From an uncultured Bacilli bacterium (GTDB lineage Bacteria; Bacillota_I; Bacilli_A; RF39; UBA660), in contig CALVOU010000013.1 of the NCBI GenBank assembly GCA_944350365.1, positions 1 through 32,920 of the forward strand: a stretch of 32,920 nucleotides of DNA. The letters are read 5' to 3'. Positions 11,034 to 28,718 of this stretch are shown here, piece by piece. Position 1 is the first letter of the stretch; every line of letters starts with the position of its first letter. The notes under the pieces are model-generated. The model was given only the letters and a program-made list of their open reading frames with translations, was not told the origin of the DNA and ran no database searches. A program made the position numbers and the translations under genes.

Positions 11034-11062
11034 TTGACATTTCATACCCTTCATCTTATAAT
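11034..11062 (+). promoter_or_regulatory. consensus promoter of the TasA-like operon
   Basis: TTGACA (11034-11039), exactly 17 bases, TATAAT (11057-11062). This is a full sigma-A consensus. The leader of about 60 bases contains a small TTGAG/CTCAA hairpin (11084-11102) and then GAAGGGAAG before the ATG. Confidence 0.9.
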
Positions 11063-11130: not shown

Positions 11131-11700
11131 ATGGAAGAAAAGAAACAAACAAATTCAAGTACAATTGTATTAACAGTAGTTGGAATTATTGCTTTAGTTG
11201 TCATATGTGTTGGTGGAAGTTTTGCATATTTTACAGCGGTAGCTACTTCGAATGAACAAACCATCACAACTGGTACATTAACAACTAAGTATATTTCAGG
11301 ACAAGATATTAGTGCAACCAATATTATTCCTACAGAAGAAACTGGTGCTCAACTTCATAAGTTTAGTGTACAAAATACAGGAAATAATCCTGCTACATTG
11401 AAGTTATCTTTAGTAGAAACTACTTTAAAGAAAGAAGAAGCAGATACCACGAGTGCTAATTTAAAGTGGGCTTTATATGAAGCTAACGAGTCTTATGTAG
11501 AACAAGGCGTTGCAATTGCAACTGGTGATTTTGCAACAGTAAATCCCACAACATTATTAAAGGATAGTATTAGCATTGATGGTGGTACAACGAAATATTA
11601 TATTTTGAAAATTTGGCTTGATGAGATCGATGCTCCTCAGAACGAGGATCAAGGTATGTCTTTCTCTACGAAAGTTCAAGTTGATATGCAGAAAGGATAG
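11131..11700 (+). CDS. TasA/CalY-like exported protein, copy 1
   Basis: A 189-residue protein with a short charged N-terminus, a hydrophobic segment at about 11-34 ending in GGSFAYFTA, and a beta-rich exported domain. The N-terminal pattern (GG-x-x-A-Y/F-x, followed by a TGTL strand) is typical of TasA/camelysin-type proteins processed by the SipW signal peptidase in Bacilli; TasA itself forms biofilm fibres. Hallmarks shared with the next two genes are SGQDI, NLKWALY, and YYILKIWLDEI with QNEDQG near the C-terminus. There is no LPxTG sorting motif. No SipW gene is in the window, so whether the hydrophobic segment is cleaved or serves as an anchor is open. It is first of four genes and ends 2 bases before copy 2. 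Confidence 0.8.
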   Translation: MEEKKQTNSSTIVLTVVGIIALVVICVGGSFAYFTAVATSNEQTITTGTLTTKYISGQDISATNIIPTEETGAQLHKFSVQNTGNNPATLKLSLVETTLKKEEADTTSANLKWALYEANESYVEQGVAIATGDFATVNPTTLLKDSISIDGGTTKYYILKIWLDEIDAPQNEDQGMSFSTKVQVDMQKG

Positions 11701-11702
11701 AA

Positions 11703-12269
11703 ATGAAAGTGGAAGAAAAAAATAATAGAAATAAAAATGTGATTATTATTGCACTTGCTATTTTAGGGTTGATTGCTGTATGTATCGGAGGGACTTATGC
11801 ATACTTTACAGCTATAGCTACCTCTAATCCACAGACGATAACGACTGGAACGTTAACAGCAACTTATAATACGGGACAAGATATTAATGCGTCTAATATT
11901 ATTCCAACTGCTGAAGCGGAGGCTACAGAGCATCATTTTAGCATTACCAATAATAGTTCATCTACCTCTGAATTAAGCTTATCGTTTACGGAACTATCTT
12001 TAACTAAAGGTGGTATTCCTACTCAATCTGGTAACTTAAAGTGGGCTCTATATAATGCGAATGAATCTTATGCAGAATCAGGTTCATCAATAGCTGGTGG
12101 CGAATTCTCTGATACTTCATCCCCTAAGACCATCATAGATGGTGTCTCTTTTAACTCCAAGGAAACGAAATATTTTGTTTTAAAAATTTGGTTAAATGAA
12201 ATAGGAAGTCCTCAAAACGAAGATCAGGGTTTGTCGTTTAGTACTAAGATCAGTGCTGAAATGGATTGA
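11703..12269 (+). CDS. TasA/CalY-like exported protein, copy 2
   Basis: A 188-residue close paralogue of copy 1. It has the same hydrophobic segment ending GGTYAYFTAIATSN, the TITTGTL strand, TGQDI, NLKWALYNANESY and LKIWLNEIGSPQNEDQG. Similarity runs from end to end, so copies 1 and 2 come from a tandem duplication. The mature part is Ser/Thr-rich (NNSSSTSELS, TSSP), which would offer O-glycosylation sites. It lies 2 bases after copy 1 with the Shine-Dalgarno sequence (AAAGGA) inside that gene's end, so the two are translated together. Confidence 0.8.
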   Translation: MKVEEKNNRNKNVIIIALAILGLIAVCIGGTYAYFTAIATSNPQTITTGTLTATYNTGQDINASNIIPTAEAEATEHHFSITNNSSSTSELSLSFTELSLTKGGIPTQSGNLKWALYNANESYAESGSSIAGGEFSDTSSPKTIIDGVSFNSKETKYFVLKIWLNEIGSPQNEDQGLSFSTKISAEMD

Positions 12270-12273
12270 TTAT

Positions 12274-12867
12274 ATGGAAGATAATCGAGAACAGACAGTA
12301 GAAAAAAAAGAACAGAAGAGGGCTAGGAAGATTATTTTTATTATCATCTTTCTTTTGCTTTTAATAGGATTTACTGTTGGTATTTCTTATTACTTTTTTT
12401 CAAAAACAATTACTGGTAACGGTGATCAAGACGTGATTACTACTGAGGAGGTTAGTGTATTTTATTTGACCGGTCAGGATATCAATGTAGAAAATATGAT
12501 GCCTGGATATGAAAATGATGCTCCTAGACATACATTCTTATTAGAAAATAACGGTAAGAGTAGTCAAAAATATACAATGTCTTTTTCCAATGTTAATCTA
12601 CAACAGGCTGGAAAGAATGTTGAAGTCGTAAACTTAAAGTGGATTCTATACGGTGCTAGTCAGAATTATTCTGAGCAAAAAAAACTTGCTTCAGGTGATT
12701 TTGCTGTTGTGGATTCAACATTGCCGATTTTAGAAAACATTACTATTGAAGCTGGCGAAAGACAGTATTATGTTTTAAAAATTTGGTTAGAGGAAATTGA
12801 GGAAGTACAAAACGAGGATCAAGGATTGAATTTTAGTGCTCAGATTGGCATTAGTTTAGAAAAATAG
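12274..12867 (+). CDS. divergent TasA/CalY-like protein, copy 3
   Basis: A 197-residue paralogue with the C-terminal hallmarks intact (TGQDI, NLKWILYGASQNY, YYVLKIWLEEIEEVQNEDQG). Its N-terminus differs: a longer, highly charged head (about 20 residues rich in Glu, Lys and Arg) precedes a very hydrophobic segment (about 21-43), and the AYFTA-type processing motif is replaced by YYFFSKTITG. This copy may stay membrane-anchored and serve as a base or minor subunit, by analogy with minor fibre subunits; this is inference. ATG 12274 is preferred over a GTG at 12253, which would overlap copy 2 by 17 bases. The ribosome binding site is weak. Confidence 0.72.
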   Translation: MEDNREQTVEKKEQKRARKIIFIIIFLLLLIGFTVGISYYFFSKTITGNGDQDVITTEEVSVFYLTGQDINVENMMPGYENDAPRHTFLLENNGKSSQKYTMSFSNVNLQQAGKNVEVVNLKWILYGASQNYSEQKKLASGDFAVVDSTLPILENITIEAGERQYYVLKIWLEEIEEVQNEDQGLNFSAQIGISLEK

Positions 12868-12885
12868 AAAGAAGGGATCGTTATT

Positions 12886-13407
12886 ATGAAAATGAAGAAG
12901 ATTTTCATCTTGAGCTTAGCGGTTCTTCTTTCTTTACTTATTATTGGAATTAGTTATGCCCATTTTAGTGCTTCGGCTCAGTCCACTACTCAATATTTTT
13001 CGACAGGAGATTTTTCTTTTACATTAACGGAAGATGGCGGTAAATTGAATTTGGCCAGTAGTTATCCGCTCAGTGATAGTGAGGGGATAGCTACTAATCC
13101 CTATACTTTTAGTGTTACGAATACTGGTGATATTGATGCCAATTATCAGATAATATTAAAAGAAGATCAAGAAGCGATCGATAACTGTGGCTGTACTAAG
13201 ATTCTAGATATGAATAATATTAAATATCAGCTGGATGGTGGAGAAATTGGCTTGTTATCTTCTAGTGGAAATCAAGTTATTGCGCAAGGAAGTATAAATG
13301 CAGATGAAAATAAGAATTTTTCTTTACGAATATGGTTAAAAGAAGATAGTGGCAATGAAGTATTGGGAACTCACTTTCATGGAAAAATACAAGTAGTTTT
13401 CTATTGA
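12886..13407 (+). CDS. distant TasA/CalY-like exported protein, copy 4
   Basis: A 173-residue exported protein with an N-terminal signal segment (about 4-24) ending GISYAHFSASAQ. A STGDFSF strand takes the place of TTGTL, and the C-terminal core (NFSLRIWLKE) parallels LKIWL of the other copies. It lacks the QNEDQG motif and has a close cysteine pair (NCGCTK) absent from copies 1-3. It is best seen as the most diverged member of the tandem set, perhaps a cap or adaptor subunit (inference). GAAGGGA precedes the ATG by about 10 bases. A terminator follows, closing the four-gene operon. Confidence 0.7.
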   Translation: MKMKKIFILSLAVLLSLLIIGISYAHFSASAQSTTQYFSTGDFSFTLTEDGGKLNLASSYPLSDSEGIATNPYTFSVTNTGDIDANYQIILKEDQEAIDNCGCTKILDMNNIKYQLDGGEIGLLSSSGNQVIAQGSINADENKNFSLRIWLKEDSGNEVLGTHFHGKIQVVFY

Positions 13408-13411
13408 TAAT

Positions 13412-13448
13412 AAAAAGGGTGCTAGAAAAAATCCTAGTGTCCTTTTCT
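13412..13448 (+). terminator. terminator of the TasA-like operon
   Basis: AAAAAGG, a 3-base internal mismatch and CTAG pair with CTAG and CCTTTT (13412-13446). The poly-T comes from the stem's own CCTTTTCT end. Confidence 0.65.
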
Positions 13449-13486
13449 GTATTAGTAAAGTTTAATGAAAAATACATAAAATCATC

Positions 13487-13515
13487 TTTAAAAAAATAGA
13501 AAACTTTGATATGAT
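13487..13515 (+). promoter_or_regulatory. putative promoter of the PMT-like gene
   Basis: TTTAAA (13487-13492), 17 bases, TATGAT (13510-13515). The matches to consensus are moderate. The start would give a leader of about 20 bases with GGGGAGG before the ATG. Confidence 0.45.
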
Positions 13516-13541
13516 TATAGAGTAAGTAGGGGAGGCTTAAA

Positions 13542-15257
13542 ATGAAAAAAAGTGCAAAATCTAAGTTTAAAACGATAAAAAGTTTACTTAGAGATAACTC
13601 TAGAAAATTAGGTAAAATCGATTGGATAATTATCGGGGTTATGGTAGTGGTTTATTCCATTATATCTTTCATTAATCTTGGTAGTTTTACCAATCCACAG
13701 ACCTTTTTAGAGTTCCAATACAGTGGCGAAGAAGCTAGTTTTACTCTAGCTGAAGCTAAAGAAGTTTCGCATATTAGAATGTATGCAGGACCTGAAATCG
13801 GTTCGTATGATATTTTTATCTCTTCGGATGGAAATAATTATGAGCAGGCAACAACAGTAACACAAAATTCAGTTTTTGCTTGGGATGATTTTCAAATCGA
13901 TAAGAATTTTCAATATTTGAAAATTATTTCTAAAAACGAAGGCAGTTACATTGGAGAAATTCAACTATATGATAATTATGGTAACAAAATAGAATTAACG
14001 GCTGAATCGGAGACAGCTAAGTTATTGATCGATGAAAAAGATACAGTACCAGCTACGATCAGTTATCTAAATAGTACTTATTTCGATGAAATTTATTTTG
14101 CGAGAAGTGCTTATGAATACATTCATGGTATTCCGACTGTTGAATGGGTGCATCCACCACTTGGTAAGTTAATTATGGCAATTCCAGTATTATTATTTGG
14201 TATGTCGACATTTGCTTATCGTTTGATGGGAAATATTGCAGGTATTTTGATGATTCCTGTTATCTATGCATTAGCGAAAAATATCTTTAAGAATCGTAAA
14301 TGGGCTATTTTAGCTGGAATTCTTATGATGTTTGATTGTTTCCATTTTGCGCAGACAAGAATGGGAACTGTGGATAGTTTCTTAGTACTGTTCATTATGT
14401 TATCGGCATTGTTCATGTATAAGTATATTGTCCTAGAAAATAATGCTAAGTTGAAGACGAAGTTAATTAATCTTTTCTTATCTGGACTATTTATCGGTTG
14501 TGCGATAGCGACTAAGTGGACGGGATTCTATGTGGGACTTGCTCTTGCGATTGTGTTCTTTGCGAATATCATTTATCGTAATGTTGGTAAAGGTAAAGAA
14601 AAGGATAAAGATTTAGGAAAAATTATCTTATCTTGTTTCGTCTTCTTTGTTGGTATACCACTTTTGATTTACGTATTATCTTATCTTTTATTCCCAATTG
14701 TCTATCCAGGTAAGGTAGAAGGAATAAGTGGATTGATCAAACAGACTCAAGATATGTATACTTATCACTCTACACTAGAAGCAACACATCCATTTACTTC
14801 GGAATGGTATACTTGGCCAGCTATGATTAAACCTGTTTGGTATTATGTTGGTTACTTCGGTGGCGGTATGAAGGGAACAATTGTTGGTATTGGTAATCCA
14901 GCTATTTGGTGGTTTGGAATTATCGCTAGTATCTTTGTTCTTATCATGGCACTTCTTAGAAGAAAACGAGAAGATTGGTTTATCTTAGTATTTATTTTAG
15001 CTACTTGGTTACCATATGTTTTTATCGGTAGAATTATGTTTATGTATCACTATTTCCCAACATTACCATTTATTATGCTAGCAATTGTTGCATTAATTAA
15101 ATTTATTACTGAGAAAATTAGAAATAATAGTGTATACTTATTTTATGTTGGAGTAGTTATTCTACTATTTACCTATTTTTATCCAGTAATCTCTGGTATG
15201 ATTACTTCTGAAAAATATATCGAGACAATACGTTGGCTATCTAGCTGGTATTTCTAG
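13542..15257 (+). CDS. PMT-type (GT39) protein O-mannosyltransferase with discoidin-like insert
   Basis: A multi-pass membrane glycosyltransferase that would move mannose from a polyprenyl-phosphate carrier to Ser/Thr of exported proteins. Residues 27-48 form the first membrane helix. Residues about 55-155 form an outside domain resembling F5/8 type C (discoidin) folds (IRMYAGPEIGSYDIFISSDG ... IGEIQLYDNYGN). The PMT core then follows: the acidic pair Asp182-Glu183 in DEIYFARSAYEY, the HPPLGK motif at 204-209, and AQTRMGTVDSF resembling the QSRxxxxD motif of Pmt proteins. Eight or more further membrane helices run to the C-terminus. The 571-residue length is explained by the insert. Acceptor and sugar are inferred from the family. 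It is monocistronic, with a strong terminator after it. Confidence 0.82.
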   Translation: MKKSAKSKFKTIKSLLRDNSRKLGKIDWIIIGVMVVVYSIISFINLGSFTNPQTFLEFQYSGEEASFTLAEAKEVSHIRMYAGPEIGSYDIFISSDGNNYEQATTVTQNSVFAWDDFQIDKNFQYLKIISKNEGSYIGEIQLYDNYGNKIELTAESETAKLLIDEKDTVPATISYLNSTYFDEIYFARSAYEYIHGIPTVEWVHPPLGKLIMAIPVLLFGMSTFAYRLMGNIAGILMIPVIYALAKNIFKNRKWAILAGILMMFDCFHFAQTRMGTVDSFLVLFIMLSALFMYKYIVLENNAKLKTKLINLFLSGLFIGCAIATKWTGFYVGLALAIVFFANIIYRNVGKGKEKDKDLGKIILSCFVFFVGIPLLIYVLSYLLFPIVYPGKVEGISGLIKQTQDMYTYHSTLEATHPFTSEWYTWPAMIKPVWYYVGYFGGGMKGTIVGIGNPAIWWFGIIASIFVLIMALLRRKREDWFILVFILATWLPYVFIGRIMFMYHYFPTLPFIMLAIVALIKFITEKIRNNSVYLFYVGVVILLFTYFYPVISGMITSEKYIETIRWLSSWYF

Positions 15258-15279
15258 ATGTAAAAACGGATAAAATTTC

Positions 15280-15310
15280 AAGAATTATCTTTCAAGATAA
15301 TTCTTTTTTT
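15280..15310 (+). terminator. terminator of the PMT-like gene
   Basis: A perfect 11-bp stem AAGAATTATCT / AGATAATTCTT with a TTCA tetraloop, ending in T7. Confidence 0.92.
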
Positions 15311-15318
15311 GTTATAAT
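15290..15318 (+). promoter_or_regulatory. putative promoter of pfkB-smr, overlapping a terminator
   Basis: TATAAT at 15313-15318 with TTTCAA at 15290-15295 (17-base spacing). The -35 box would lie in the loop and 3' arm of the preceding terminator. Confidence 0.5.
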
Positions 15319-15337
15319 ACTATTAGGTGATCAATAT

Positions 15338-16246
15338 ATGCAAATATATATGTGCATAGGACATGCTGCCTATGACATTACTTTGCCTGTTGAGTCGTAT
15401 CCAATAGAAAATACGAAGGTCAGAATTGCTCATGGTGTAGAGTGTGGTGGTGGAGCTGCTGCCAATGCGGCTTATCTGTTATCCAAGTGGGGAATGAAAA
15501 CTTATTTTGTTGGTGCCGTTGGAAATGATTTATATGGGGAAAGAATTAAAGAAGAGTTTAGAAAAATTAAAACGAATATCGATTATTTAGAAACAACTGA
15601 TGCTTTTCGAACAACAACAAGTTACATTTTGGCTAATTCTGGTAATGGTAGTCGAACGATTATCGTTAGCCGTGATAAGACAACAGGAGTCACGAATTTA
15701 GAATATGGTGTCAAACCAGACGTTATCTTAGTTGATGGGGAAGAGTTAGAAGCCTCTAAGAAAGTATTGTTGGAAAATCCAGATAGTATAAGTGTAATTG
15801 ATGCGGGTAACTTAAAACCTAATATTGTAGAACTTTGCAAGTATGTGAAGTATTTGGTTTGTTCAAAGGATTTTGCTGAAGAATATACAAAGGAGAAAAT
15901 CGATGTTGATGATGAGACCTCTCTCATTAGAGTGTACAAAAAGATTAAAGAAGATTATCAAAATACTTTGATTATTACTCTTGGAAAAGATGGTTCATTT
16001 GCGGAGATTAATGGTAAATATGAACTTATTCCATCTTTAAAAATCGAAAAGCCAGTAGATTCTACTGCTGCTGGTGATATTTATCATGGGGCATTCACTT
16101 ATTTTATTGGAAATGGTTACGATCTATATAATAGTATTCGTCTAGCCAATATCGCAGGAGCTTTATCTGTTAAATGTTTAGGCGGTAAGAATTCAATGCC
16201 AGACTTGGATAAAGTACTAGAGATAGGCGAAGAACTTGTTATATAA
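15338..16246 (+). CDS. PfkB-family carbohydrate kinase
   Basis: A cytoplasmic ribokinase-like ATP-dependent kinase of a sugar or nucleoside. The 302-residue length is typical. The N-terminal substrate-binding pattern (GHAAYDITLPVESYP) leads to the GG-rich motif ECGGGAAANAAYLLSKWG, with VGAVGNDLYG near residue 65. The C-terminal signature DSTAAGDIYHGAFTYF carries the catalytic base Asp247 and the anion-hole glycine region. Substrate cannot be read from sequence; ribose, fructose-6-phosphate, tagatose-6-phosphate or a nucleoside are all possible. AGGTGA precedes the ATG by 7 bases. It overlaps the Smr gene by 11 bases. Confidence 0.88.
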   Translation: MQIYMCIGHAAYDITLPVESYPIENTKVRIAHGVECGGGAAANAAYLLSKWGMKTYFVGAVGNDLYGERIKEEFRKIKTNIDYLETTDAFRTTTSYILANSGNGSRTIIVSRDKTTGVTNLEYGVKPDVILVDGEELEASKKVLLENPDSISVIDAGNLKPNIVELCKYVKYLVCSKDFAEEYTKEKIDVDDETSLIRVYKKIKEDYQNTLIITLGKDGSFAEINGKYELIPSLKIEKPVDSTAAGDIYHGAFTYFIGNGYDLYNSIRLANIAGALSVKCLGGKNSMPDLDKVLEIGEELVI

Positions 16247-16490
16247 TCATTTACCATCTTTAGATTTACACGGGATGGACCGAGAAATTACTAGAATATT
16301 AGTCAATGAGTTTATTCGTGATCATTATAAAATGAAAACAGAAAGAGTAGTGATTATCCATGGAATAGGGACAGGAGTATTAAAAAAAACAGTACATGAA
16401 GAGCTACGGAAAAATAAATTAGTAGAAAACTTCTATTTAGACTTTTTTAATATTGGTAGTACGATCGTTTCTATCAAGCAAAATATTTGA
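16236..16490 (+). CDS. stand-alone Smr-domain protein
   Basis: An 84-residue Smr (MutS2 C-terminal-like) domain with both signature motifs: LDLHGMDRE near residue 9 and HGIGTGVLKKTVHEEL near 48. Smr domains are DNA or RNA endonucleases/binders, and stand-alone small versions are of unknown role. The start is a TTG at 16236, because the first ATG (16275) would remove part of the LDLHG strand; AGGCGAAG lies upstream. It overlaps the kinase gene in another frame, which indicates translational coupling. The last codons also contain the -35 box of the next promoter. Confidence 0.85.
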   Translation: MLYNHLPSLDLHGMDREITRILVNEFIRDHYKMKTERVVIIHGIGTGVLKKTVHEELRKNKLVENFYLDFFNIGSTIVSIKQNI

Positions 16491-16515
16491 CATTTCTTTA
16501 GGTTTGTGTTATAAT
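16487..16515 (+). promoter_or_regulatory. consensus promoter of the surface-protein genes
   Basis: TTGACA (16487-16492), 17 bases, TATAAT (16510-16515): full consensus. TTGACA overlaps the TGA stop of the Smr gene. Confidence 0.92.
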
Positions 16516-16548
16516 ACGACGCATAAAACCAAAGAGGGGGAGATTTAT

Positions 16549-18057
16549 ATGTATACGGAAGAAAGAAAAGGGAACTTGTTAAAAGAGTTCTTAATGAAAT
16601 TAATTTTAGTTATCATCTTTGTATTATTATTGATCTGGCTAGTGCCTTGGCCAAATATGGATAGCTATATCGAAGCTTTGAATCCATTAAAGAGTCAGAT
16701 TTTTAATGCGAATATTCAAGAAATGAAAGATGCAGCTATTCTCTATTACACGGAAGAGAGATTACCACAAGAAGTAGGGGATACCAAAACACTTACTTTA
16801 CAACAAATGTTAGATTTAAAATTATTGGTTCCATTTGTGGATAAAGATGGTAATTCTTGTGATGTTACAGAGTCTTATGTAACAATTGAAAAACAAGAAA
16901 CTGAGTACTTATTGAAAGTTAACTTGAAATGTGGAGAAGAAGAAGATTATATCTTAGTTCACATTGGATGTTATGCTTACTGTACGTCATATGTGTGTGA
17001 GAAGGAAGAAAATGAACCTGTTAAACCGGGTGATATTATTAAACCTACGGCTACTCCAACATCGACACCTACAACAACACCAACAACAACACCAACGACA
17101 ATTCCAACACCTACTGATTGTCCTACTTGTACACCTTGTCCAACGTGTCCAACATCAACTCCGACTACGACACCTCCAGATGAACCGAAGGCTTGTGAAG
17201 TAAAGGATGGTAAATATTATGGTAAGGATGGTAATGAAGTAGATCAAGAAACTTGGGTAAAAGAATGTACAACATCACCAACTCCAACGACAACACCTAC
17301 TACGACGCCAACACCTCCACCAACCGATGAACCAGATAAGGAATGGGAGTATCGTTATAAGAAATATACACCAGCTTATTGTGCTAATTGGTCAAGTTGG
17401 TCAACACAAATGTTGAAAAATGGAGAAACTTTAAAAACAGAAAATACGATTTATAAAGTAGTAGAAGATTTAGGTATTAAACGTGTTCAAGTTGGAACAA
17501 TTAGCCCAGTATATCAAAAGGTAATAGTTACACATGATGAACAGTATCAAGTTGGTACCCATGATTACAAAGTGTGCGTCGAATACAATTATGTGGTAAG
17601 TGGTGGAACTTTATATCAAATTACTGGTGATTGGACTTATACCGATAATTACTATCGTGGTTATAATCCACCTGCTGATACTGCTACTTCTCGTTGGATT
17701 TTCCAAGGCATTGACTTTGATGTCTGTGGTAGCGATTGTACAAATCACCCATATGTGATTTATAGACAACAAGTAAGAGGCGGTACTGTTCAAAGTGGTG
17801 AGCCAACAATTAGCGCTACTTGTACTAAAGTAGAAACTAGATCAATACCAACTTATATTACCAGAACAATTACAGAAACAAAGACAATACTAAAAGAGCC
17901 TGAAAAACCTTTATATGGTGATATACATTTCTATCGTGAGAAAACTTGTACTGATGTAAGACAGGCTTCTTACAATTATGTATGGAGTCATTACAACGAT
18001 ACTAGCTTGCTAGGACAGGGTTATGTTTATACTGGTGAGTATCGTGAGAAAAATTAA
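16549..18057 (+). CDS. membrane-anchored surface protein with mucin-like Thr/Pro stalks
   Basis: A 502-residue protein of unknown family. A short basic cytoplasmic head is followed by a membrane helix (about 14-36). A Cys-containing domain of about 115 residues comes next (NANIQEMKDAAILYYTEERL ... HIGCYAYC), whose opening resembles pseudopilin-like helices but is not assigned. Thr/Pro stalks follow at 166-210 and 241-259 (repeats of PTTTPTTTPT), the first interrupted by DCPTCTPCPTC. Between them is a small loop bounded by cysteines (ACEVKDGKYYGKDGNEVDQ ... KEC). The C-terminal half, rich in Tyr, Trp and Thr, starts with ANWSSWSTQ. Such stalks are classic O-mannosylation targets, and a PMT-type enzyme lies 1.3 kb upstream. 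GAGGGGGAG fixes the ATG at 16549; an upstream in-frame start would lie before the promoter. Confidence 0.8.
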   Translation: MYTEERKGNLLKEFLMKLILVIIFVLLLIWLVPWPNMDSYIEALNPLKSQIFNANIQEMKDAAILYYTEERLPQEVGDTKTLTLQQMLDLKLLVPFVDKDGNSCDVTESYVTIEKQETEYLLKVNLKCGEEEDYILVHIGCYAYCTSYVCEKEENEPVKPGDIIKPTATPTSTPTTTPTTTPTTIPTPTDCPTCTPCPTCPTSTPTTTPPDEPKACEVKDGKYYGKDGNEVDQETWVKECTTSPTPTTTPTTTPTPPPTDEPDKEWEYRYKKYTPAYCANWSSWSTQMLKNGETLKTENTIYKVVEDLGIKRVQVGTISPVYQKVIVTHDEQYQVGTHDYKVCVEYNYVVSGGTLYQITGDWTYTDNYYRGYNPPADTATSRWIFQGIDFDVCGSDCTNHPYVIYRQQVRGGTVQSGEPTISATCTKVETRSIPTYITRTITETKTILKEPEKPLYGDIHFYREKTCTDVRQASYNYVWSHYNDTSLLGQGYVYTGEYREKN

Positions 18058-18070
18058 GGGGTGAAACATT

Positions 18071-20839
18071 ATGGAGATTAAACGTTTTAGTGATATAGAT
18101 AATGAGGTTTATAGATCACAAGTTCAAAGAGTGTATGCCGTTACTAACGATAAAAATTTGGTGCCAGGTACTACAGAAGACAATTGTTTAAACGAAATGT
18201 TCGTTTTCCTTAAAGACGGTAGTGTAGATTATTTTATAGCTGATTCTGATATCGATGTTAGAACACAGGAAACTGAAGACTTTAACAGTTTCATTACTAA
18301 TTGGTGCGATCAAACAGGGGTCAATTGGCAAGATTCTAGATATTTTAAACAACTGCGTTTAGGATCTAAAAATAAAGAAGAACAAAAGTTGATAAGGAAC
18401 CTTGAATCAAATTATCAAGATTATGAAGAGGGTTACGAAGAAGGAAACACAAAGAAGCCTCTATCTCTTGGTAAAAAAGCAGCTATAGCCGCAGGAACAG
18501 TAGCAACTGCAGGTGCTCTTGCGGCAGGTGGCTTTGCCTTACATAATGCATTAGCTAATGGCAATCAGCTTCAGACTACAACAGAAGATGAAAATACACT
18601 TACGAAACCAGATATGGAAGGACAAACATGGGATTATTATGTGGAGAATGCTGTTAACAGTACTCAAAAACAATTTTATACAACTCTCGGTGATTGGTTA
18701 ACGAACTTTAATAATTCTGCTTCATGGATGTCTAGAACAAACAATGCTGGTCAAAGTTCTACTTTTGGTTTAACTGCCAAAGAAGGCGCAAGCTTGATGC
18801 TTAGATTTAATGAGTATACCGATGAAGAAATCATTACTATCTGTAATGGTATGAATATCAATGCCGACGAAATCATGGAAGAAAGTAATCATGCAATTGA
18901 AAAGTTGATTACTTATTATACAATTAGCGGAACGCCAACTGGTATCGATTCCTTATTTAATGATGCTCATGATAAAGAAGTTATTCAAGCATTTGAACAA
19001 CATCATCAACAAGTCATGAACGCTACTAATGAAGATGAAAAAGAATCATTAATGCAAGTAGAAAAGCAAATGTTCTACGATTACTTTAACAGTGATGTCG
19101 AAGGAAAAGAGACTAAAGCAGAAGCTGCATCTACTTCTTACTTATTAAGAACGATTTTACCAGCTGATACGATTATTTCTCAACTTAATCGTTATCATGA
19201 TACAGAAGCAATTTATAAAATCGGTTCTAGTGAGCCAATTAATGTAACAACTTCATTATTTGGTGAACAAATGATGTGTCAATTTGTAACTGGTTGGGAG
19301 AACTTCGATCAAGACTCTTATCTTGGAGAACTTGGATATAGTAGCAGTAAGTATTATGTTAAAACGGATGGTGTGCAAAGAAGTATCGCAGATATATCTT
19401 GTGGCGAACAAGAAAAGAAATTAAGGGATGGCGATAGTTATCGTTTAGAATTAACTGAAACTAATGCTGCTGTAGATACGGCTATTCAAACGATGAAATT
19501 AACTTTACAAGCAGACAACAAGTATTCAGAAGAAGAAATTAATCAGATCATTAATCAAATGGAAAATAATCTTAACGATGGAAAAGGTTATAATTCTATT
19601 GATGAACTTACAGAGTATACATATGATCGTGATTTGATTGAAGCAATGCTTGATCAAAAATTAAAAGATTTGAATAAATATCCATCTTATGCCGATACTT
19701 TCGATGAAGTAATCGAGGAAATGTTCTTAAATCAGGCTACTGTTAAAGGAAGTTCTAAAGGTTATTCATCAAGCAGTGGAAGTAGTTCAAGTTCGACTGG
19801 TGGACAAAAAGTAGAAACCACAAATCCACAAGAAGCAGAAGCTGCATTACAATCAATGGGTGTTTCTCCAGAGATATCTGAACAAATGAGAATTGAAGCC
19901 GAAGAAAAAGCTGCTGCCGCTGTCGGAGCAGAAAGAGATACTGAAGAAGTAAAACAGAAACATGAGCAGCAAAATGAATTAGAAGAAGTTGAATATCAAA
20001 ATATTTATAATGCTACTTTTAATTATTTTGCCGGTGAGAATGTTAAGTCTACTTCTAAATCATTTGATAGTAGTTGGGCTTATTCATCTGATGCAAGAAC
20101 CCGTTCGTCTTATGAAGCTGGTAAAGCAGATGGATTATCTTATAAACAACAAAAAGAGGCAATTAAGAATGAGCCAACTACTGGTGGAGAAATTAAGGAT
20201 GACACATTAGACGATCTAAAAGATCAAGATATTGATGTGGATAATATCGGTACTGATAAAGGCGACTCAAATGGTCAGACAATTGATGACATTATTAATG
20301 CAGGTAACAGTGAGGATCCAAATAAAGGTAATACGATACCTGGTGGAGGATCTGATTCTGGAATAATTCCTCCTCCTCCTGAAGATTTGAATGGTGGAAA
20401 TAACAGCGGTAATGATAATAGTAGTAGTGGAAACACTGATTCTAACGAGGGAATTACGAATGATCCAGGTGATTTTTCACCTGTAGTACCAGATGACACT
20501 ACAGACGGCATGACACAAAAACCAGATGGAACATATGGTGGGGAAACCCAGATTGATGATGCTATACAGGAAAGTATGGGTACACAACCTGCTCCTGAAG
20601 CACCTGCAGAAGCTCCTTCTAATGATACTGCACAATCAACGCCTGAAACTTCAGCAAGCAGTACCGTTGATCAAGCAATTGATGCGGTAATAGAAGAAAC
20701 TGCTCAACAAATTTATGAAGAACAAACTATGGGTGGCGATGCAGTTATTTATGATGGCTTAGAAGATTATATTTCTAATCTTGGCGAAGAAGAGGTAGTT
20801 ATGCCTGAAGAAACAGAAGCTGTTAAAACAATGAAATAA
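18071..20839 (+). CDS. large single-pass surface protein with disordered C-terminus
   Basis: A 922-residue protein I do not recognise. Residues 1-134 form an acidic, cytoplasmic-type domain (FKDGSVDYF-like strands; a repetitive YQDYEEGYEEG near 117-127). An Ala/Gly-rich hydrophobic helix lies at about 136-157 (AAIAAGTVATAGALAAGG). A large outside domain of about 390 residues follows (160-555), then a Ser-rich hinge (GYSSSSGSSSSSTGG, about 562-578), a helical module at 587-619 also found in the protein at 28051, and a Gly/Asn/Asp/Pro-rich tail (about 740-860). The C-terminus is acidic, without LPxTG. It starts 14 bases after the stalk protein with AAGGGGTG as ribosome binding site and no promoter between, so the two are one operon and possibly a complex. 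Confidence 0.82.
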   Translation: MEIKRFSDIDNEVYRSQVQRVYAVTNDKNLVPGTTEDNCLNEMFVFLKDGSVDYFIADSDIDVRTQETEDFNSFITNWCDQTGVNWQDSRYFKQLRLGSKNKEEQKLIRNLESNYQDYEEGYEEGNTKKPLSLGKKAAIAAGTVATAGALAAGGFALHNALANGNQLQTTTEDENTLTKPDMEGQTWDYYVENAVNSTQKQFYTTLGDWLTNFNNSASWMSRTNNAGQSSTFGLTAKEGASLMLRFNEYTDEEIITICNGMNINADEIMEESNHAIEKLITYYTISGTPTGIDSLFNDAHDKEVIQAFEQHHQQVMNATNEDEKESLMQVEKQMFYDYFNSDVEGKETKAEAASTSYLLRTILPADTIISQLNRYHDTEAIYKIGSSEPINVTTSLFGEQMMCQFVTGWENFDQDSYLGELGYSSSKYYVKTDGVQRSIADISCGEQEKKLRDGDSYRLELTETNAAVDTAIQTMKLTLQADNKYSEEEINQIINQMENNLNDGKGYNSIDELTEYTYDRDLIEAMLDQKLKDLNKYPSYADTFDEVIEEMFLNQATVKGSSKGYSSSSGSSSSSTGGQKVETTNPQEAEAALQSMGVSPEISEQMRIEAEEKAAAAVGAERDTEEVKQKHEQQNELEEVEYQNIYNATFNYFAGENVKSTSKSFDSSWAYSSDARTRSSYEAGKADGLSYKQQKEAIKNEPTTGGEIKDDTLDDLKDQDIDVDNIGTDKGDSNGQTIDDIINAGNSEDPNKGNTIPGGGSDSGIIPPPPEDLNGGNNSGNDNSSSGNTDSNEGITNDPGDFSPVVPDDTTDGMTQKPDGTYGGETQIDDAIQESMGTQPAPEAPAEAPSNDTAQSTPETSASSTVDQAIDAVIEETAQQIYEEQTMGGDAVIYDGLEDYISNLGEEEVVMPEETEAVKTMK

Positions 20840-28050: not shown

Positions 28051-28458
28051 ATGGAAGAAAAAAATGGTAGAATAGTTGAATTTGTAGAATCTACAGAAGT
28101 TCAAAAGCAACAAAAGAAAGCAAAAAGACAATTACGAATCATGGTTGCCTCTTTAATTTTGACAGGAGCTATTGGTTATGGAGTAATGAATCAGTCTCAA
28201 GCCGTTGAACCTCGACAAGAGGCAATATCTACTTTAACCGATATGGGAATGTCTGAGGTGGAAGCAGTAGAAAAAATTCGTGCTGCGGAAGAAAAGGCAG
28301 CTCAAGAACGTGGTGTAGTTGCACCGGAACAAGCATATATTGCTAATGAACATCAACAATTTTTAGATAAAATCAATCAAAAGATAGTAGAGATGAATCA
28401 AATGCTTGATAACATTGATGCGAATGAACAGACGGTTAGTGAAGGCAAAACTCGTTAA
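28051..28458 (+). CDS. small single-pass membrane protein sharing a module with the 922-residue surface protein
   Basis: A 135-residue protein of unknown function. Residues 1-30 are charged and basic before a membrane helix (about 31-48, MVASLILTGAIGYGVM). The outside part is helical and rich in Glu, Ala and Gln. Residues 56-88 (QEAISTLTDMGMSEVEAVEK then IRAAEEKAAQERG) align without gaps to residues 587-619 of the protein at 18071, with 14 of 33 identities, including the MG-x-S turn and AEEKAA. TAGGAGG lies before the ATG. It ends the frr operon, just before the T-box promoter. Confidence 0.78.
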   Translation: MEEKNGRIVEFVESTEVQKQQKKAKRQLRIMVASLILTGAIGYGVMNQSQAVEPRQEAISTLTDMGMSEVEAVEKIRAAEEKAAQERGVVAPEQAYIANEHQQFLDKINQKIVEMNQMLDNIDANEQTVSEGKTR

Positions 28459-28499: not shown

Positions 28500-28718
28500 A
28501 TATTGAGTTTGACAGTGATTAGGAAGTAGTAATAAGGATCTTTATTACTAGAGACCTTGTGGGTGGTGGAAACAAGGAATAAATACTTATGAATTCATCC
28601 TAGGAGTCCTTAGTAAAAGCTAAGCGTTGCTTCGCGTTAAGAAGAAGAGATATAGTTTTACTATAATTAAGGTGGTACCGCGGTCATTCGCCCTTAGGGA
28701 TGAATGACCGTTTTTTTT
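28500..28718 (+). promoter_or_regulatory. T-box leader, phenylalanine type
   Basis: Senses uncharged tRNA and permits read-through of a leader terminator. The canonical T-box AAGGTGGTACCGCG is at 28669-28682; its TGGT can pair with the ACCA end of tRNA-Phe (discriminator A). Stem I is represented by the 28530-28610 region, where TTC (28594-28596) in GAATTCATCC is a suitable Phe specifier codon. The terminator is at 28681-28718. Specificity agrees with the pheST genes downstream, although a hydrolase gene comes first. Confidence 0.93.
28681..28718 (+). terminator. T-box leader terminator
   Basis: CGGTCATTC (28681-28689) pairs with GAATGACCG (28702-28710), followed by T8. The 5' arm overlaps the antiterminator formed with the T-box sequence. 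Confidence 0.93.

Follow-up and report, generated by a model that had tools for sequence, protein, structure and literature searches.

Does the run of genes for TasA-like exported proteins, a PMT-type glycosyltransferase and two single-pass surface proteins in this DNA encode one cell-surface apparatus, or two that happen to lie next to each other? The genes occupy positions 11131..20839, all on the forward strand, of the 32,920-nucleotide stretch that was analysed (the window). It comes from an uncultured lineage of bacteria, widespread in guts, about whose surface, to our knowledge, almost nothing is known. A first-pass annotation had listed four Tas genes, the PMT gene and two genes for single-pass surface proteins, all of which are indeed present there, and had joined their products into a combined apparatus of fibres and glycosylated stalks. 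The reading that we favor, with a probability of roughly 0.6, is instead that two separate surface units stand side by side, and that the PMT-linked spacer of the stalk is mucin-like and probably glycosylated.

The Tas block consists of four consecutive genes, Tas1 (11131..11700), Tas2 (11703..12269), Tas3 (12274..12867) and Tas4 (12886..13407). Tas1, Tas2 and the divergent Tas4 score 27.3, 29.3 and 21.7 bits, respectively, with the NCBIfam model of the SipW-type signal (TIGR04088, cut-off 19 bits), and are therefore predicted to be SipW-type exported proteins; the CalY/M73-like Tas2 alone also passes Pfam Peptidase_M73 (PF12389, 27.7 bits; cut-off 22.5). Tas3 passes neither of these two models, and the alignment identifies it as a clear paralogue with 35–43% identity to Tas1/Tas2-type proteins, in which the signal-peptidase −1 alanine is replaced in all four species that carry it (SYY/SYH versus SYA/TYA). 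Tas3 is thus possibly left uncleaved and membrane-anchored, judging from these residues. An AlphaFold monomer of Tas1 (pLDDT 81) has ten strands in a predicted beta-sandwich, and its best TasA-related structural match in Foldseek is a weak one to the archaeal bundling pilin of Pyrobaculum calidifontis (7ueg, E = 2.4e-3, TM about 0.33); a profile search of the Tas proteins against solved structures returned nothing. We considered and rejected assignment as TasA orthologues, as the TasA equivalog model NF046066 gave Tas2 17.2 bits against a cut-off of 450 and did not match the others.

The claim that assembly must proceed by a route other than SipW started from the lack of sipW in the window. 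This premise proved wrong, since the genome encodes a single SipW homologue at 30873-31391 of contig C1 of this assembly (G000; TIGR02228, 92.5 bits, cut-off 51.85), near KsgA-like and MetG-like genes and outside the Tas operon. No LPxTG motif is visible in the proteins of this locus. The SipW-type signal, the beta-sandwich prediction and the SipW homologue resemble the TasA/CalY system of Bacillus and BsaA of Clostridium perfringens, which polymerises in a SipW-dependent manner (PMC7395162). By contrast, SipW here lies outside the cluster, the scores are far below the TasA cut-off, and the genes form a tandem array of four, one without the cleavage residue, within a family of which this genome of 1.47 Mb contains at least 17 dispersed matches.

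The Tas block also appears to be transcribed on its own. A perfect sigma-A-type promoter (TTGACA-N17-TATAAT, 12/12 consensus positions, 11034..11062) precedes Tas1 and is retained, close to consensus, in the other three species that have the block, and a terminator-like hairpin with a T-rich tail (13413..13446, z = −5.4; −4.5 and −4.2 in two relatives) lies between Tas4 and the PMT gene. Conservation of neighbours in related genomes, chosen beforehand as the check on which the combined apparatus would stand or fall, divides the locus: PMT and stalk stay linked throughout the genus and in eight other genera, whereas Tas1–4 adjoin PMT in only 4 of the 16 PMT-bearing genomes of the genus by synteny. 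In other PMT-bearing genomes of the genus, a PPDK gene directly adjoins PMT, and the genus-wide order is PMT-(PfkB)-Smr-stalk-large protein, with Tas genes in four species only. Distribution across the order gives the same answer. Of 146 genomes, 104 have TasA-like proteins, as do 8 of the 11 that bear PMT, which is what chance would give, and the distribution of the family is independent of PMT. With so many dispersed TasA-like genes, it would not be rare for one cluster to lie some 10 kb or less from PMT. Joint assembly of TasA-like fibres and a PMT-glycosylated stalk on the surface could draw on the retained Tas-PMT adjacency in the four closest species and on a 797-aa ORF directly upstream of PMT in another genome (G002, locus L064), which looks SipW-type by eye. 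Because adjacency is this limited, co-occurrence is at chance level and the Tas unit has its own promoter and terminator hairpin, we consider that model very improbable; the synteny, the distribution and the transcription units all count against it. The Tas block is better described as a recent, clade-specific neighbour, separate from the PMT-stalk unit and tied to it by position only.

The second unit is centered on the stalk protein, whose gene starts at 16549. It has a short cytoplasmic tail, a single transmembrane segment (residues 14–32) and a conserved Cys-rich domain (together 16549..17001), followed by a Thr/Pro-rich, mucin-like spacer (17005..17344; 85% T/S/P in the best 40-aa window) that differs in length and sequence between species, and by a C-terminal extracellular beta-rich domain of no known family (17345..18057). 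Of the 146 order genomes, 129 have the N-terminal domain (A6 profile), with conserved cysteines at positions 104, 128, 141, 145 and 150 and usually as a single copy, compared with 11 that have PMT. The prepilin peptidase motif GFxxxE was not seen in this domain, nor does it have a PDB homologue; the model of the stalk (pLDDT 54.6) comprises a long helix and three strands at low confidence and found no Foldseek match, and we therefore do not claim a pilin fold. A thrombospondin-like assignment of the C-terminal domain from WSxW motifs was dropped for want of Pfam support, and whole-stalk profile matches to PDB entries were set aside as low-complexity Pro/Thr. The order-wide partner of the stalk is a 922-aa single-pass (N-in) protein (18071..20839) with one weak transmembrane segment (139–157) and a fast-evolving extracellular part; its identity is 20–35% in most members of the genus, versus 72–99% for flanking housekeeping genes, and no family was found for it. 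A perfect extended −10 promoter (TTGACA-N17-TATAAT, 12/12, 16487..16515), recognisable at 18 of 18 aligned loci, precedes this pair. Between PMT and stalk lie two genes missing from the first-pass annotation, for a PfkB-family sugar kinase (15338..16246; PF00294, 1.2e-42) and an Smr-domain protein (16236..16490; PF01713, 8.1e-16), both order-wide conserved neighbours, the usual arrangement in the order being PfkB-Smr-stalk-large single-pass protein.

The PMT gene (13542..15257) encodes a multi-pass glycosyltransferase of the GT39/PMT family. PF02366 (E = 1.7e-23, 83.9 bits versus 22.7) and PF16192 (1e-22, 81.1 bits versus 32.4) are matched by all 17 homologues, in which the catalytic DE pair of loop 1 (D182, E183) and H204 P205 are invariant, aligning with FDEVHF and HPPLGK of solved PMTs. 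In these fold regions and motifs the enzyme resembles actinobacterial and fungal PMTs; unlike them, it has no MIR domain, its donor may not be mannose, and its first extracellular loop carries a CBM32/F5-8 (discoidin)-like insert (13689..13976, approximate limits), which matches the CBM32 structure 4a42 by profile (E = 3.6e-5); in two of the 17 members PF00754 also gives a weak match. Similarity to PMT_2/ArnT-like enzymes (PF13231; PRK13279, 1.4e-8), among which relatives use lipid acceptors, raises the thought that the enzyme modifies a lipid or cell-wall polymer and that the Thr/Pro stalk is merely extended and unmodified. This seems very improbable, since the best solved-structure matches are true protein O-mannosyltransferases (9i5k, E = 7.6e-23, including the PMT_4TMC half, and also 6p25) and the presence of GT39 co-varies with the spacer.

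About 16 of 150 genera have a GT39, nine of them with its gene directly linked to that of the stalk; a further match, in G263, was dropped as spurious (E = 3.7e-4 over 50 residues). Mucin-like spacers are found mostly in lineages with GT39, also in those that have it on another contig. Thr/Pro spacers likewise occur in the genera g3 and g76, whose PMT is unlinked to the stalk. Since the T/S/P fraction is confounded by poly-Ser spacers (g152), we adopted a joint T/S-and-P (mucin) index, defined post hoc after the data had been seen; the PMT-negative genomes for the comparison were chosen by their best-scoring stalk matches. On this index, genomes with PMT have the higher values (p = 5e-5 by permutation of genera; PGLS t = 7.96, p = 1e-3 to 1e-12, with p = 0.0013 under the Brownian model), and 6 of 6 independent pairs differ in the expected direction (p = 0.03). 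Plain T/S/P content gave four of six pairs as expected, one tie and one reverse. Exceptions occur both with PMT and no strong mucin spacer (G093 and G338 of g61, and genus g124) and without PMT (a Thr/Pro spacer in G371, and the poly-Ser spacer of g152). GC content was discarded as a cause of the difference, since among the PMT-free genomes it does not correlate with the spacer index (rho = 0.03).

The stalk need not be the only target of the enzyme. PMT is unlinked to the stalk in g3, g61, g76, g131 and g160, the association with the spacer weakens under a Brownian model (p = 0.0013–0.007), and the GT39 of Caldicellulosiruptor bescii acts on many proteins (PMC6151902). PMT might accordingly modify many or other exported proteins, with the stalk adjacency a matter of vertical inheritance and the Thr/Pro spacer a habit of the lineage. 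We regard this as unlikely, although it is the most serious of the competing explanations; spacer composition tracks PMT even in unlinked lineages, and the stalk is therefore at least one likely substrate. Thus the proposal that the stalk is a PMT acceptor gains comparative support, because the two genes are conserved together and the spacer follows PMT across lineages.

A close parallel is in C. bescii, where enzymes with Thr/Pro linkers are no longer glycosylated, and CelA is cleaved more, once a GT39 gene (Cbes_1864) has been deleted (PMC6151902). Both are Bacillota GT39 genes of similar length (1701 bp versus 1716 bp here) with Thr/Pro linkers as likely targets. While the C. bescii enzyme protects a linker cellulase, the predicted target here is a surface stalk anchored in the membrane, whose gene is linked to that of the enzyme in many genera, and the CBM32-like loop-1 insert is seen here.

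Under the two-unit reading, the stalk would cross the membrane via Sec and, with the large partner co-transcribed from its own promoter, form an order-wide anchor whose spacer keeps the outer domain at a distance from the membrane. The spacer appears to have been swapped repeatedly in evolution, among Ig-like arrays, Pro/charged rods, Ser runs and Thr/Pro mucin. GT39 may move a hexose from an undecaprenyl-phosphate sugar to spacer Ser/Thr, with the CBM32-like loop possibly holding the acceptor or nascent glycan, and glycosylation would stiffen the spacer and shield it against gut proteases. The Tas proteins, a putatively recent cassette, would probably be processed by the one SipW, encoded elsewhere in the genome, and might polymerise like TasA or BsaA, with Tas3 as a possible anchor. 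More tentatively, at somewhat less than an even bet, we suggest that this is an undescribed order-wide surface-anchor system with interchangeable spacers, in which mucin-like rods, in at least 12 genera, are glycosylated by a CBM-bearing GT39 using a sugar other than mannose. An anchored stalk whose spacer type changes with the glycosyltransferase offers a natural experiment in enzyme-acceptor sequence co-evolution and a concrete target for glycoproteomics of enriched fractions from the gut. The CBM-like loop of this GT39 may in turn reveal a new mode of holding the acceptor.

As for the sugar, the mannosyl in the name O-mannosyltransferase is doubtful here. The ManC beta-helix domain (PF22640) had no match in 14 genomes, other GMP types being outside the scope of that profile, and the donor is therefore perhaps not mannose. 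The undecaprenyl-phosphate sugar could be made by a GT2 such as the DPM1-like enzyme encoded at 8205-9116 of contig C10, which shares 37% identity with the PMT-linked GT2 of another locus (L041) and also occurs in PMT-free genomes.

Between the PPDK and AdhE genes, the window encodes, all on the + strand, four SipW-type (TasA/CalY-like) proteins (Tas1-4, 11131-13407), a GT39-family glycosyltransferase (PMT, 13542-15257), PfkB, Smr, a membrane-anchored stalk protein (from 16549) and a 922-aa partner (18071-20839), confirming the side-by-side arrangement of surface genes described in the first-pass annotation. The window is contig C13 of a genome, putatively of the RF39 group, that is 1.47 Mb in size and 96% complete, with relatives including 'Candidatus Scybalousia' and other uncultured Bacilli. 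As judged from sequence, the core of the system is the stalk together with its large partner. The first 150 residues of the stalk protein, with five conserved cysteines, were found in 129 of the 146 order genomes (71 of 75 genera), mostly in single copy, and the commonest gene order is PfkB-Smr-stalk-large protein, often after PPDK and with PMT either present or absent. A fixed leader joins the stalk gene to a perfect extended -10 promoter (together 16487-16548), and this arrangement is recognisable in consensus form in 18/18 aligned loci; such promoter strength is unusual for a surface protein gene. The large partner, which matched no known family, shares 20-35% identity in most genus members, compared with 72-99% for its flanks. 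Downstream of the large protein, outside the window's genus, many genera carry a conserved 139-142-aa ORF (MKxxYIFEYxNENEFxKxERS; loci L102, L104, L113, L114, L126 and others). Within the window, a 135-aa protein with a UBA/TS-N-like motif (28051-28458) shows similarity to part of the large surface protein (29% across 73 aa against the L056 homologue).

PMT is less widespread, being present in 41 genomes from 16 genera among 386 family genomes after removal of one spurious match. In nine genera the gene sits 1-3 kb upstream of the stalk gene; at least five genera carry it on a separate contig. Stalk proteins were compared between 44 genomes with PMT and 90 without it, the latter sampled with a bias to well-matching stalks; the median T/S/P fraction in the best 40-residue window was 0.72 with PMT versus 0.47 without. 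The difference held by genus (14 vs 55 genera; rank test p=3e-6, permutation p=5e-5). PGLS on the N-domain tree, using a joint Thr/Ser-and-Pro index chosen after the sequences had been inspected, returned t=7.96 with the best lambda and, under Brownian motion, p=0.0013; 6/6 phylogenetically independent pairs agreed in direction (p=0.03). Thr/Pro spacers also occur in lineages with unlinked PMT (genera g3 and g76, and G271 of g61), a pattern that speaks against mere hitch-hiking. The rule has exceptions in both directions: g124, G093 and G338 have PMT and a weak mucin spacer, and G371 and g152 have a Thr/Pro or poly-Ser spacer without PMT. Overall, the association between PMT and the Thr/Pro spacer is strong, though not preregistered. 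The earlier proposal stands in half: the idea of the stalk as PMT acceptor gains comparative support because the spacer tracks PMT, whereas the combined fibre-stalk apparatus loses it, as discussed later. In g152, where no PMT was detected, stalks L211 (G304), L172 (G361) and L180 (G235) have poly-Ser or Ser-rich spacers reaching 100% T/S over 40 residues, and another Ser glycosylation enzyme may operate there. In PMT-free genera, L107 (G083), L112 (G052) and L131 (G095) appear by eye to have Ig-like repeat arrays in place of the spacer.

Both halves of the PMT profile, the DE and HPP motifs among them, align with protein mannosyltransferases of solved structure; the enzyme lacks a MIR domain. 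Its first extracellular loop contains ~100 extra residues matching the CBM32 structure 4a42 (E=3.6e-5); Pfam F5/8 type C matched weakly in two PMT homologues. In half the genus (L059-L065), PMT has an extra ~60-residue hydrophobic insert after residue 345. The genome also encodes a DPM1-like GT2 (C10:8205-9116), on the same contig as a gene that looks GalE-like by eye. A search of 14 genomes detected no ManC beta-helix, so the donor sugar may be other than mannose. Most likely, the stalk would be exported via Sec and anchored in the membrane by its N-terminal helix, GT39 would transfer hexoses from a lipid-linked donor to the Thr/Pro spacer, and the glycosylated spacer would form a stiff, protease-resistant rod presenting the outer beta domain. 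Of this, the genes themselves are observed, and we infer the glycosylation, the sugar and the mechanical role. A Bacillota precedent for GT39 acting on Thr/Pro-linker proteins is C. bescii, in which deletion of the GT39 gene abolished glycosylation of secreted Thr/Pro-linker enzymes and exposed CelA to cleavage (PMC6151902). Glycosylation of such linkers by GT39 is already known; the literature searched held no description of GT39 linked to an order-wide anchored stalk with exchangeable spacers, or of a CBM-bearing GT39 enzyme.

By contrast with the stalk, the Tas block appears from sequence to be a neighbour of the PMT-stalk locus and not a component. Tas1-4 adjoin PMT in 4 of 16 PMT-bearing genus genomes, the four closest only; elsewhere in the genus, PPDK lies directly against PMT in several genomes, or the gap is filled by other genes, including in G002 a 797-aa ORF of SipW-type appearance (by eye). 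The block has a perfect promoter of its own at its start and is closed by a hairpin followed by a T-rich tail (three species examined). TasA-like proteins are scattered through the window's genome (17 matches) and occur in 104 of the 146 order genomes; PMT occurs in 11, eight of them with TasA-like genes, as expected by chance. A layout similar to the window's was seen in an Erysipelotrichaceae MAG, where a 760-aa protein, SipW-type by eye, lies between PMT and IF3 (L041:5097-7379).

Three of the four Tas proteins passed the SipW-type signal model, and Tas2 additionally passed the camelysin/M73 model. In the alignment, Tas3 retains the hydrophobic segment and has lost the -1 Ala in 4/4 species carrying it, and may therefore remain in the membrane. 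Tas1 is predicted to be a beta-sandwich (pLDDT 81) with weak structural matches to jelly-rolls and an archaeal TasA-related bundling pilin (E=2.4e-3), which places the modelled kinship with TasA at the superfamily level. Together the four proteins probably constitute a small filament system dependent on SipW, analogous to BsaA (PMC7395162) and TasA (PMC9674648), that was acquired or expanded in one clade. The previous suggestion that assembly must bypass SipW is needless, as the genome encodes exactly one SipW-type peptidase, on a different contig, and peptidases of this type are present in 141 of the 146 order genomes. Elsewhere in the window, a T-box leader (RF00230, 113 bits) lies at 28506-28698, upstream of the esterase-PheS-PheT genes.
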